Source of the DNA: Nocardioides sambongensis
Lineage (GTDB): Bacteria > Actinomycetota > Actinomycetes > Propionibacteriales > Nocardioidaceae
Length of the DNA: 64,000 nt
Assembly: GCF_006494815.1 (NCBI RefSeq)
Contig: NZ_CP041091.1
Location: 3,734,501 to 3,798,500, forward strand
Direction of reading: 5' to 3'
Shown here: piece after piece, positions 41,259-51,063 of the stretch
How the letters are laid out: each line of letters starts with the position of its first letter
How positions within the stretch are numbered: position 1 is the stretch's first letter
Notes under the pieces: generated by a model
Database searches by the model: none
The model's input: the letters and a program-made list of their open reading frames with translations, nothing else
What the model was told of the DNA's origin: nothing
Made by a program: the position numbers and the translations under genes

Positions 41259-41276
41259 TAACTGGCGCGTCAGTTA
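41259..41276. promoter_or_regulatory. Catabolic regulon operator A
   Basis: TAACTGGCGCGTCAGTTA, an 18-bp inverted repeat (TAACTG-N6-CAGTTA) that covers the expected -35 region of the promoter with -10 box TATGCT at 41287-41292. The same element recurs at 44044, 45532 and 46298, so a single repressor probably controls the nitronate-monooxygenase-like gene and the rest of the cluster. Confidence 0.7.
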
Positions 41277-41286
41277 AAACCCGTCC

Positions 41287-41292
41287 TATGCT
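41287..41292 (+). promoter_or_regulatory. -10 box (TATGCT) of the nitronate-monooxygenase-like gene
   Basis: TATGCT lies 10 bases downstream of operator A and 42 bases before ATG 41335, a regular promoter-operator layout in which repressor binding would block the -35 region. Confidence 0.45.
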
Positions 41293-47510: not shown

Positions 47511-49591
47511 TGACGACGCAGCTGACGCGCGCTTCGACGCCCGCCGGCCTCGATCCCCTCTGGGATCCCGAGGCCGTCACGGTGGTCGGCGCCTCTGCCG
47601 ACCCGTCGAAGTGGGGCTACTTCCTGGCCCGCGGCGCGCTGCGTGGCGCCCAGCGCCGGGCCGTGCACCTGGTCAACCGCCGTGGGGCCGACGTCGCGGG
47701 TACGGCGACGGTGCGCTCGCTGGCCGAGATCGACGGTCCGCTCGGCCTGGTCGTCCTCGCAGTGCCGGCGGCGATGGTCCCCGACGTGGTGGACGAGGCC
47801 CTGGAGCGTGGAGCGACGGGGTTCGTCGGTATCACCGCCGGCATCGATCGCGCGATCGGCCGGAGCGGTGCGGAGCGCGAGCTGGCGGCGCGGATCCGTG
47901 CTGCCGGCGCCCGGCTGATCGGGCCCAACTGCCTGGGCGTGGTCGACGTCCAGACCGACCTCCACCTCGCCTGGGGCGAGTTCCATCCCGGGCACATCGG
48001 CGTCATCTCGCAGAGCGGTCAGCTCGGGTCGGAGATCGCCGAGCTGGCGGCCCAACGGGGTGACGGCGTCTCACGTTTCGTGTCGGTCGGCAACCAGGTC
48101 GACGTCAGTGCGGCCGAGGCGCTCGCCGCCCTCGCCGACCACGACCGCACCCGCGTGGCCATCCTCTATGCCGAGAGCTTCGGCGACGGCGCCGCCGTCA
48201 TCGCTGCCGTACGACGGATGCGCGCGGCCGGCAAGCACACCATCGTCCTCACGGTCGGGGCGAGCGGAGCGAGTCGGACCGCCGCGGCGTCCCACACCGG
48301 ATCGATGACCTCGAGCACGGACGTGGTCGACGCCGCCTGCCGTGCCGCGGGTGCGCTGCGCGTGGCCACCCCGTCCCAGGCCGTGGATCTGGCCGTGCTG
48401 CTCAGCCAGGCGCCGTTGCCCACCGGCGGTCGCGTCGCGGTGGTCAGCGACAGCGGTGGGCAGGGCGCGATCGCGGCGGACGTCGCCGAAGCGGCCGGCC
48501 TGCGGGTGCTGCCGTTCGGGAGTGACCGCCGGGGCGTCATCGCCTCGCTGCTGCCCGCCGATGCCGGCGTCGCCAATCCGATCGACCTGGCCGGTGCCGG
48601 CGAGCAGGACATCGAGGTCTACGCCCGCGTCGTCGAGACCTGCCTCCAGGACGCCGACGTCGACGCCGTGCTCCTCACCGGCTACTTCGGGAGCTACGCC
48701 GTCGACACCCCCGACCAGGCGGCGCGGGAGCGGGACGTGGTGGAGATGCTCGCCACCGCGGTCGCCGCCTGGGGGAAGCCGGTCGTCCTGCACTCGATGT
48801 GTGCGGGCTCGTCCAGCCTCGACCGCGCCCGTGAGCTGGGCCTGCCGGTCTTCTCGAGCGTCGAGTGCGCCCTCGGCGCGCTGGCGGGCGCGGCGCTGAT
48901 CGGGCGTGACGAACGTGAGGTGCCGCCGTCCGAGCTGCCGCAGCGGACACCACGACCGGCGACCGGGTACCTCGGCGCCCGGGCGCTGCTGCGCAGCGTC
49001 GGTGTCGACTTCCCGGAGGCGGTCGAGGTGCGTGTCCCCGACGACGTACGGGCGGCGGCGCGTCAGCTGTCGGCGCCGTGGGTGCTGAAGGCGGACTGGA
49101 TCGAGCACAAGACCGAGCACGGCGCGGTGGTGGTGGGCATCGAGGATGCTGAGGCCGCCGTGGCGGAGCTGGAGAGGATGCGTGCCCGGCTCGGTGACGG
49201 CGCCTATGTGCTGGAGGAGATGGACCGCAGCGACCACGCCGTGGAGGTGATCGCCGGCGTGCGCACGGACCCGACGTTCGGACCGGTCGTCCTGGTGGGG
49301 GCCGGCGGGACCGAGGCCGAGCTGTGGCGCGACACGGTGCTCGAGCTCGCGCCGGTCACCGTCGACACCGCCTGCACCATGGTGGCCCGGCTGACCAGCC
49401 ACCGCGTGCTGACCGGTTGGCGCGGACGGCCGAGCGTCGACATCGACGCTCTCGCGCGCACCATCGCGGCGATCTCCCAGCTCGGTGGGTGGCCGGGGGT
49501 CAGCGAGATCGAGGTGAACCCGCTGCGGGCCTCGCCGAGCGGCGTGGTCGCGGTCGACGCCCTGGTGATCATGGACCCGGAGCAGGCGTGA
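47510..49591 (+). CDS. ADP-forming acetate-CoA ligase-type acyl-CoA synthetase (fused alpha-beta)
   Basis: 693 residues, the fused form of nucleoside-diphosphate-forming acyl-CoA synthetases. N-terminal CoA-binding Rossmann domain (VTVVGASADPSKWGY); succinyl-CoA-synthetase-like domains with GPNCLGVVD, ISQSGQLGSEIAEL and the phosphohistidine loop AASHTGSM; C-terminal ATP-grasp domain with VLKADWIEHKTEHGAVVVGI and EIEVNPLRASPSG. Converts a carboxylic acid + CoA + ATP to acyl-CoA + ADP + Pi. ATG 47510 overlaps the previous stop by one base (TGATG). Supplies the CoA ester for the preceding dehydrogenase from the acid made by the following aldehyde dehydrogenase. Confidence 0.88.
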   Translation: MTTQLTRASTPAGLDPLWDPEAVTVVGASADPSKWGYFLARGALRGAQRRAVHLVNRRGADVAGTATVRSLAEIDGPLGLVVLAVPAAMVPDVVDEALERGATGFVGITAGIDRAIGRSGAERELAARIRAAGARLIGPNCLGVVDVQTDLHLAWGEFHPGHIGVISQSGQLGSEIAELAAQRGDGVSRFVSVGNQVDVSAAEALAALADHDRTRVAILYAESFGDGAAVIAAVRRMRAAGKHTIVLTVGASGASRTAAASHTGSMTSSTDVVDAACRAAGALRVATPSQAVDLAVLLSQAPLPTGGRVAVVSDSGGQGAIAADVAEAAGLRVLPFGSDRRGVIASLLPADAGVANPIDLAGAGEQDIEVYARVVETCLQDADVDAVLLTGYFGSYAVDTPDQAARERDVVEMLATAVAAWGKPVVLHSMCAGSSSLDRARELGLPVFSSVECALGALAGAALIGRDEREVPPSELPQRTPRPATGYLGARALLRSVGVDFPEAVEVRVPDDVRAAARQLSAPWVLKADWIEHKTEHGAVVVGIEDAEAAVAELERMRARLGDGAYVLEEMDRSDHAVEVIAGVRTDPTFGPVVLVGAGGTEAELWRDTVLELAPVTVDTACTMVARLTSHRVLTGWRGRPSVDIDALARTIAAISQLGGWPGVSEIEVNPLRASPSGVVAVDALVIMDPEQA

Positions 49592-51063
49592 GCACCGGGA
49601 CGGAGACCGTCGGCGCGCGTGCGGCCGCCGACGCGAGCCTCGGCGCCGACCCGACCCGGTCGCTCTGGCAGCGCGACGCTGCGTTCATCGACGGCAGCTG
49701 GCGGATCGCCGCGCAGACCGACGAGATCGAGGACCCGGCGACGCGTCAGGCGTTCGGACGCTCCGCCCGCTGCGACGACGGGACGGTCGAGGCGGCGGTG
49801 CGAGCGGCTCGGACCGCGTTCGACCCCTGGGCCGCGCGGGATCGACCCGACCGGCTGGCCGTGCTGCGACGTTGGCAGTCCGAGGTCGAGCTGCGCCGCG
49901 AGATGCTCGTGGAGGCCACGGTGCTCGAGGTCGGAGCGCCTGTCGACGTGGCGCGGGAGGCGCACGTGGACCTGGCGCTGGAGATCATGCGCACCACGCT
50001 CGACGAGCTCGAGGGACCCGAACCCGTCGAGCGGATCGGCAACTCCATCATCGTGCGGGAGCCGGTGGGTGTGGTCGCCTCCATCACACCCTGGAACTAC
50101 CCCTTCTACCAGCTGGTCCTGAAGGCGGTCGCCGCCGTCGCGGCGGGTTGCACCGTCGTGGCGAAGCCCGCCGAGCTGACCCCGCTGTCGGCGTACCTGC
50201 TCGCCGACGCCGCCGAGGCCGCTCAGCTGCCCCGGGGCGTGTTCAACCTGGTGCCCGGCCGCGGTGACGAGGTCGGCGAGCGGCTGGTGACCCATCCGGA
50301 GGTGGATCTGGTGTCGTTCACCGGCTCCACCGCGGTGGGGGCGCACGTCGCAGCCGCCGCGGCCGCGACGATCAAGCGGGTCTGCCTGGAGCTGGGCGGC
50401 AAGTCGGCCAGTGTGGTGCTGGACGGGGCCGACCTCGCCACGGCCGTGCGCACCACCGTCGACATGGCGATGCTCAACTCCGGACAGACCTGCAGTGCCT
50501 GGACCCGGCTGCTGGTCCCGGTGGCACGCCTGGAGGAAGCGGTGGAGCTGGCCGTCGAGCACACCGGCGCGCTGGAGGTCGGCGACCCGACGCGCCCCGG
50601 CGTCGCCCTCGGGCCGTTGGCGTCCGCGCGGCAGCAGGCACAGGTCGAGGGCATGGTGGCCCGCGCCCGCGCGGGCGGGGCGCGCGTCCTGGGTGCCCGC
50701 CCGGTGCCCGACCGGGGTTACTTTCATCCGCCGCTCATCGTCACCGACGTGGACGAGGACGACGAGATCGTCCGGGACGAGGTGTTCGGTCCGGTCCTGG
50801 TGGTGCTCGGGCACGGGGGCGACGACGATGCCGCACGGTTGGCCAACGACAGCGACTACGGCCTTGCCGGAGCGGTGTGGGCGGCCGACACGGAGACCGG
50901 CGTCGCGTTCGCCCGCCGACTGCGCACCGGGCAGGTCGACGTCAACGGGGCGGCGTTCAACGTGCACGCGCCCTTCGGCGGCTTCAAGAAGTCCGGCTAC
51001 GGCCGCGAGCTCGGCCGCTACGGGCTCGAGGAGTTCACCGAGATCAAGTCGATCCAGGTCTAG
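49588..51063 (+). CDS. NAD(P)-dependent aldehyde dehydrogenase
   Basis: 491 residues, classical ALDH superfamily. Motifs: TPWNYPFYQLVLKAVAAVAA (cofactor), VSFTGSTAVG, general base Glu268 in LELGGKSA, nucleophile Cys302 in NSGQTCSAW, and EVFGPVLVVL, PFGGFKKSGYGRELG near the end. GTG 49588 overlaps the ligase stop by four bases. Third gene of the operon under operator D; most likely oxidises the aldehyde formed by the amine oxidase. The 3' end overlaps the convergent monooxygenase by four bases. Confidence 0.93.
   Translation: MSTGTETVGARAAADASLGADPTRSLWQRDAAFIDGSWRIAAQTDEIEDPATRQAFGRSARCDDGTVEAAVRAARTAFDPWAARDRPDRLAVLRRWQSEVELRREMLVEATVLEVGAPVDVAREAHVDLALEIMRTTLDELEGPEPVERIGNSIIVREPVGVVASITPWNYPFYQLVLKAVAAVAAGCTVVAKPAELTPLSAYLLADAAEAAQLPRGVFNLVPGRGDEVGERLVTHPEVDLVSFTGSTAVGAHVAAAAAATIKRVCLELGGKSASVVLDGADLATAVRTTVDMAMLNSGQTCSAWTRLLVPVARLEEAVELAVEHTGALEVGDPTRPGVALGPLASARQQAQVEGMVARARAGGARVLGARPVPDRGYFHPPLIVTDVDEDDEIVRDEVFGPVLVVLGHGGDDDAARLANDSDYGLAGAVWAADTETGVAFARRLRTGQVDVNGAAFNVHAPFGGFKKSGYGRELGRYGLEEFTEIKSIQV

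Follow-up and report, generated by a model that had tools for sequence, protein, structure and literature searches.

A 64,000-nucleotide (nt) window of the Nocardioides sambongensis genome (NCBI RefSeq assembly GCF_006494815.1, contig NZ_CP041091.1, positions 3,734,501 to 3,798,500) contains a set of genes and operator-like sites that very likely forms a TetR-controlled regulon for the catabolism of a primary amine, with the TetR protein as the putative binder of the sites. From left to right, the set comprises an operator-like site at 41259, a gene of the nitronate monooxygenase (NMO) family, a permease gene and a small open reading frame (ORF) on the minus strand, a site at 44044, an amine oxidase gene, a site at 45532, the TetR gene, a site at 46298, and genes for an acyl-CoA dehydrogenase (ACD), a CoA ligase, and an aldehyde dehydrogenase (ALDH), the last three joined by overlapping stop and start codons. 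Families were assigned with Pfam and NCBIfam profiles. These family assignments, for the enzymes, the transporter, and the TetR protein alike, agree with those proposed in an earlier annotation made from the DNA alone (here, the original prediction). No described system with this gene set was found in open-licence papers.

The four 18-mers on which the original prediction was built are present with the same letters at all four positions, and their placement in promoter regions agrees with our reading of the genes, resting in the case of 45532 on its position before the TetR gene. All four had been called palindromes, a description that suits two of them better. The site at 41259..41276 (TAACTGGCGCGTCAGTTA), before the NMO-family gene, and the strongest site, at 46298..46315 (TAACTGACGCGTCAGTCA), before the ACD-ligase-ALDH operon, are self-complementary at 16 of 18 positions, whereas the site at 44044..44061 (TGACTAACGCATCAGTTA), between the amine oxidase gene and the divergent small ORF and permease gene, and the weaker one at 45532..45549 (TGACCGACGGTTCAGTCA), before the TetR gene, are so at just 12 of 18. 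No strand is assigned to any of them. As in other TetR local-repressor regulons, palindromic sites stand at both the regulator and its target promoters and, as described below, are conserved.

Allowing up to 3 mismatches, the pattern TRACTRACGCRTCAGTYA has 10 strand-matches at 5 places in the window, against 0.22 expected from shuffles. Across the whole genome (4.43 Mb, one contig), the same tolerance yields 8 places, 4 of which are the reported sites; this corresponds to 7 matches per strand, versus 5 per strand for a reversed-pattern control. Matches with 0 or 1 mismatch occur genome-wide only at 41259, 44044, and 46298. Three of the remaining places were rejected as operators: a near-palindrome at 39253-39270, considered as a fifth operator in the window, is flanked by the 3' ends of a converging pair of reading frames, a probable start codon overlaps genome position 3153791, and genome position 3153976 lies inside the open frame to which that codon belongs. 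The eighth place is at genome position 3239369. A sigma-70 scan brought up nothing resembling a promoter and a single terminator-like match, a yield not above that of shuffles. Close to the first site, at 41163-41212, two C-run/G-run palindromes (AACCCCCCTGGGGGTT and AACCCCCAGGGGGGTT) were spotted by eye; they precede a minus-strand frame (40830-41132) and a metallo-beta-lactamase/rhodanese gene (39359-40729), and we presume that they are perhaps the site of another, CsoR/CstR-like regulator.

The candidate regulator is encoded at 45622..46224 on the plus strand. Its product scores above the cut-offs for both the TetR N-terminal domain (PF00440) and a BetI-type C-terminal ligand domain (PF13977), and it fails the NCBIfam equivalog model for the choline repressor BetI (81 bits against a cut-off of 201). 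A second TetR-family gene (PF00440) lies elsewhere in the window, at 38102-38704 on the plus strand, about 1.1 kb from a tRNA-Leu gene (36917-37001).

To place the gene set among its relatives, we compared 22 distinct genomes picked for the oxidase (tblastn, at least 45% identity and at least 30% coverage). Omitted before counting were the duplicates L056 and L058 of loci L017 and L021 (L058 served only to complete L021 in the gene matrix), a fragmentary match (L022), and short versions of loci taken longer (L025-L028 and L053). The fetched stretches were limited in length, so that the following gene counts are lower bounds. The permease is present in 22 genomes, the TetR ortholog in 20, ACD in 18, the ligase in 17, and ALDH in 15. 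Also recurrent are an SDR gene (13), a 2-oxoacid decarboxylase (11), and an amino acid dehydrogenase of the Glu/Leu/Phe/Val type (8), followed by a PotABCD-like binding protein, a PotABCD-like ATPase, and a DAO-type FAD oxidase (4 each) and the NMO-family gene (3). In G039, the nearest relative recovered, with an oxidase 72% identical, the genes for NMO, ACD, ALDH, ligase, TetR, oxidase, and permease are contiguous; because this cluster holds the NMO-family gene, we regard that gene as belonging to the predicted set.

The operator-like sites recur with the genes. Using a weight matrix derived from the four window sites, we found a site of at least 15 bits in the gap between permease and oxidase in 20 of the 21 loci other than the window, where dinucleotide shuffles predict 0.03 (the gap bounds of L016, L018, and L020 were set by hand). 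The 18-mer found at 46298 is letter-identical between the TetR and ACD genes of L015 and L016. Relatives have further sites beside TetR, ACD, and ligase genes, and weaker ones (14-16 bits) adjoining their amino acid dehydrogenase genes; in loci with PotABCD-like genes, sites lie on both sides of the TetR gene that precedes the PotABCD-like genes. In Amycolatopsis taiwanensis, an operator-like site stands ahead of an ALDH-ligase-ACD-NMO run in which the ALDH is distant (34%).

Since operator and gene set are kept together across related loci, we consider the predicted regulon conserved. Within the genus, the set is patchy in its distribution, as an oxidase ortholog (at least 57% identity) is found in 6 of 147 genomes. 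Wider oxidase searches with a limit of 1e-115 recovered 3 of 293 genomes across the order and 1 of 394 across the class, the window's own included in each case, and together gained one new locus. A plasmid search gave 17 records, all below 60% identity.

The original prediction had proposed a regulon under a single TetR repressor. The regulon part stands, with genes and operator kept in related loci and seven protein genes clustered in G039; the claim of one repressor is weakened by a second TetR paralog in 8 of the fetched loci. That paralog would favor an arrangement in which a regulator other than the window's TetR protein, itself a predicted binder, occupies the sites and the genes are linked by chance only. 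We consider this very improbable, however, given an ortholog of the TetR gene in 20 of 22 genomes and sites beside that gene in several of them. The genes are probably switched by one repressor.

Several observations weigh against reading these loci as one conserved amine regulon. The operator model was trained on the window's own four sites, all of the related loci were selected by their oxidase, and they are partly nonindependent (3 from Rhodococcus, 4 from Amycolatopsis, 2 from Gordonia, 2 from Mycolicibacterium, and several of the Pimelobacter type). The 45532 site, with 3 mismatches, is at chance level by its letters alone, and we find it credible because of its position before the TetR gene more than through its letters. 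Gulosibacter locus L009 has permease and oxidase genes with no operator in the gap, and no TetR gene in the stretch examined. The fetched stretches of Streptomyces (L008) and Saccharopolyspora (L013) include no ligase or ALDH gene, and the ACD of L008 is only distant (35%). With 2 mismatches allowed, pattern counts in nine relative genomes range from below the reversed-pattern control (G039 and G739) to clearly above it (G738), being not above it in 2 of the 9 and moderately above it in most others. Finally, the window's genome has an ACD gene whose 5' end does not share the frame of the rest.

This change of frame, which the original prediction did not contain, affects an ACD gene at 46348..47510 (plus strand) and falls at about 46440-46455, within a C/G-rich run. 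An ATG at 46348, preceded by a ribosome-binding-like GAGGAG, opens a plausible ACD start that ends at a stop codon after 56 residues. A different frame carries the conserved body; this frame extends without interruption back to a TTG at 46332 and could encode a 392-amino-acid (aa) protein with a different first part. Its Pfam match begins at residue 36, and the length of full-length relatives is 385-401 aa. The cause is either damage to the gene or an assembly error. The next two genes of the operon, also on the plus strand, encode an ADP-forming acyl-CoA ligase of 694 aa (47507..49591; PF13549, PF13607, and PF13380) and an ALDH of 491 aa (49588..51063; PF00171). Converging on the ALDH gene is a flavin monooxygenase gene (51060-52238, minus strand) with an ArsO family NCBIfam match of 491 bits against a cut-off of 425.

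The amine oxidase (44147..45505, plus strand) matches PF01593 over residues 17-449 with 252 bits and, being full-length and carrying the FAD motif, qualifies as a flavin monoamine oxidase. Both traits are common to its solved relatives, which are the monoamine oxidase 8p84, cyclohexylamine oxidase (4i58), and putrescine oxidase (2yg3-2yg7). With 8p84 it also has two tyrosines in common, which we take to form the aromatic cage. The chain of reactions drawn in the original prediction, from amine through aldehyde and acid to acyl-CoA and on through the ACD, which would yield an enoyl-CoA, is reasonable in its families and order, and the SDR, enoyl-CoA hydratase, 2-oxoacid decarboxylase, and amino acid dehydrogenase genes of relatives fit it. 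The ACD gene has the out-of-frame 5' end described above.

The NMO-family enzyme (41335..42315, plus strand; PF03060) had been described as nitronate monooxygenase-like, which now appears to need revision. Its closest solved relative is PA1024 of Pseudomonas aeruginosa (2gjl), with 323 of 326 residues aligned and 424 bits; an entry named nitronate monooxygenase (6e2a) scores the same. The next entries, at 144-174 bits, are FabK-type proteins (the top one at 174) and the putative nitroalkane dioxygenase 3bo9 (168), and the other entries named nitronate monooxygenase reach 67-87 bits. The protein is thus closer to PA1024 than to the classical nitronate monooxygenases. PA1024 is an NADH:quinone oxidoreductase whose genome context suggests that it keeps the NAD+/NADH ratio favorable to fatty acid catabolism (PMC10033279). 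A role of the kind given there would fit a pathway ending in beta-oxidation. In the window, the gene lies behind an operator-like site of its own and shares its locus with an amine oxidase gene. More generally, the label "nitronate monooxygenase" can mislead where the closest characterized protein is a quinone oxidoreductase.

The permease (42409..43866, minus strand; 485 aa) is of the NCS1 type, with 104.7 bits to PF02133 against a cut-off of 23.5, and its ortholog accompanies the oxidase in all 22 oxidase-selected genomes. Its start was selected from a TGATG overlap with the stop of the preceding ORF (43866..44027, minus strand), which the original prediction lacked and which encodes a 53-aa membrane microprotein: a charged N-terminal part, a Leu-Pro-containing stretch, a single hydrophobic helix, and a Trp-rich end. 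A matching frame lies ahead of the permease gene in 22 of 22 loci, namely, 20 that were aligned (the window included), L011, and L020, where the frame is open and the start codon is not fixed. Six columns are invariant in the 20-sequence alignment (L9, R12, L29, P30, D33, and W51), and dN/dS was 0.11-0.48 in all 8 pairs tested.

Among 145 genomes of the genus, the microprotein occurs in 6, and these are exactly the genomes with orthologs of the permease and the oxidase. Because all six had contributed to the query alignment, what the search adds is that the remaining 139 lack the microprotein, among them 4 whose NCS1 permeases are all distant (33-36%). A second NCS1 paralog in L015 has no small ORF by length and ending filters that missed the true cases L011 and L020. 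Among about 5.8 billion proteins, a profile search gave 56 matches, the window's and other alignment members included, and the names shown for them are hypothetical or uncharacterized apart from two with the UniRef name DUF3040 domain-containing. The window microprotein has no Pfam match at E values up to 10; a subthreshold match for one relative's (E of 0.12) was taken as chance. Neither this microprotein nor a small subunit of any NCS1 permease was found described in open-licence papers. From its coupling and co-occurrence, the microprotein is probably a small subunit of the permease.

The loci of relatives contain genes that extend the pathway. In genomes G086 and G135, a run of genes encodes TetR, four PotABCD-like proteins, ACD, ligase, SDR, decarboxylase, amino acid dehydrogenase, ALDH, an EamA-type transporter, and an FAD oxidase; G124 has this run without SDR and ALDH, and G257 has it up to ALDH. 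For runs of this type, family scans cover L017, L059, and L060 only. Sites flank the TetR gene in all four genomes. Amino acid permease genes stand behind sites in L063, L065, and L067; in L065 (G124, 6566-9643), the palindrome precedes the permease gene, which is followed by that of an Amidohydro_3 enzyme. In Rhodococcus jostii, two sites accompany a second set, which consists of a TetR gene and genes for SDR, ligase, a distant ACD (34%), enoyl-CoA hydratase, and an MFS transporter, one site lying before the SDR-ligase-ACD-hydratase genes.

Given the additional amino acid dehydrogenase, 2-oxoacid decarboxylase, and PotABCD-like importers of these relatives, an amine and an amino acid probably converge there on one aldehyde, which would be oxidized, activated, and beta-oxidized. 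The decarboxylase is thiamine dependent; on the subfamily-level model NF005712, 3 of 5 proteins scanned exceed the 500-bit cut-off (521.6, 510.0, and 504.1) and 2 fall below it (495.1 and 485.1). The amino acid dehydrogenase aligns with glutamate dehydrogenases and has Ser at the position of the Lys that binds the glutamate side chain in those enzymes. At an E value of 1e-60, nothing in the window's genome matches the decarboxylase, and the amino acid dehydrogenase was not searched there. With no decarboxylase found, the amine branch alone would run in that genome.

The substrate is most likely an amine that is imported and degraded via an acyl-CoA. Among the candidate amines, an uncharged-tail monoamine (for example, isoamylamine, isobutylamine, 3-methylthiopropylamine, phenethylamine, or an N-acyl diamine), matched by a neutral amino acid in the extra branch, is a tentative choice somewhat short of probable. 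Of the solved oxidases, the closest two carry the names monoamine oxidase and cyclohexylamine oxidase, with putrescine oxidase third, and Glu324 of putrescine oxidase, which we take to bind the far amino group, aligns with Val324 in the window and with Val or Tyr in 21 other orthologs. The Ser of the relatives' amino acid dehydrogenases points the same way, as do Amidohydro_3-type genes after the oxidase in L011, the permease paralog in L015, and the operator-bearing amino acid permease in L065. A charged substrate is suggested, however, by the PotABCD-like genes that four relatives carry and by the BCCT transporter of L012.

Such a substrate could be agmatine, with arginine added in relatives that have the extra branch: the oxidase or a 2-ketoarginine decarboxylase would yield 4-guanidinobutanal, then 4-guanidinobutyrate and its CoA ester. 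The relatives' thiamine enzyme scores best on NF005712 (5-guanidino-2-oxopentanoate decarboxylase), PotABCD-like genes belong to the TetR operon in 4 of 22 genomes, and a gamma-aminobutyrate transaminase gene lies near the oxidase in L016 and L059. The window's ALDH scores best on aminobutyraldehyde dehydrogenase (411 bits against a cut-off of 615), then on the Rv0768-type and betaine-aldehyde dehydrogenase models, none of them over cut-off. We nevertheless consider agmatine unlikely. Val replaces the presumed far-amino-group residue, NF005712 describes a subfamily, the decarboxylase has no match in the window's genome at the threshold given above, and the ALDH of R. jostii scores best on the Rv0768-type model. 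A search for ureohydrolase (PF00491) gave no match in the window's genome and matches in 7 of the 10 cluster-bearing genomes covered. Cadaverine or lysine degradation via glutarate, with the ACD as glutaryl-CoA dehydrogenase, draws on transaminase neighbors at some loci and on general gene types and is highly improbable, as the ACD fails the glutaryl-CoA dehydrogenase equivalog (212 bits, cut-off 470) and scores 330 bits on acryloyl-CoA reductase (cut-off 640), and the substrate-binding Arg of glutaryl-CoA dehydrogenase aligns by eye with Gly.

Taken together, we infer the following order of events for the predicted amine regulon. Without inducer, a TetR dimer would occupy the four operators and block the NMO-family gene, the divergent microprotein-permease and amine oxidase genes, its own gene, and the ACD-ligase-ALDH operon. 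Binding of the amine or a product to the BetI-type domain would release the repressor. The permease, probably with the microprotein as its small subunit, would import the amine, which the flavin oxidase would convert to an aldehyde, ALDH to an acid, and the ADP-forming ligase to an acyl-CoA. ACD, perhaps inactive here given its out-of-frame start, would form the enoyl-CoA for beta-oxidation, and the PA1024-like enzyme would reoxidize NADH. In relatives, the amino acid dehydrogenase and the decarboxylase would probably convert the matching amino acid to this aldehyde. A more far-reaching version, in which NCS1 permeases for primary amines form a clade of their own that requires the microprotein as a small subunit and the regulon is an actinobacterial CoA-ester route joining amine and amino acid at one aldehyde, we regard as doubtful at present. 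With operator, regulator, and gene set in hand, the putative amine pathway is open to experimental test, and Rhodococcus, Amycolatopsis, Gordonia, Mycolicibacterium, and Pimelobacter are predicted to carry this regulon as well. The small membrane protein is a candidate accessory subunit for a permease of the NCS1 type.

As a type of system, a TetR-controlled catabolic regulon is ordinary. The arginine transaminase pathway, which includes a 2-ketoarginine decarboxylase and a 4-guanidinobutyraldehyde dehydrogenase, resembles the version found in relatives, where a 2-oxoacid decarboxylase of that subfamily is clustered with ALDH. It differs in that, in relatives, the place of the transaminase is taken by an amino acid dehydrogenase of the Glu/Leu/Phe/Val family, that a CoA ligase and ACD are added, that an amine oxidase provides entry, and that no decarboxylase was found in the window's genome. 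Like the NCS1 nucleobase and hydantoin permeases (Mhp1 and the CytX model), the window permease matches PF02133 across most of its length, yet it scores only about 27 bits to Mhp1, falls below NCBIfam cut-offs, and, unlike those permeases, is coupled to a membrane protein of 53 aa. Other carriers also have small membrane proteins coupled to them, as in YhdT-PanF and YjcH-ActP. There, as here, the small gene lies directly before the permease gene and is coupled to it, whereas the window protein lacks a Pfam match and its partner is an NCS1-type permease.

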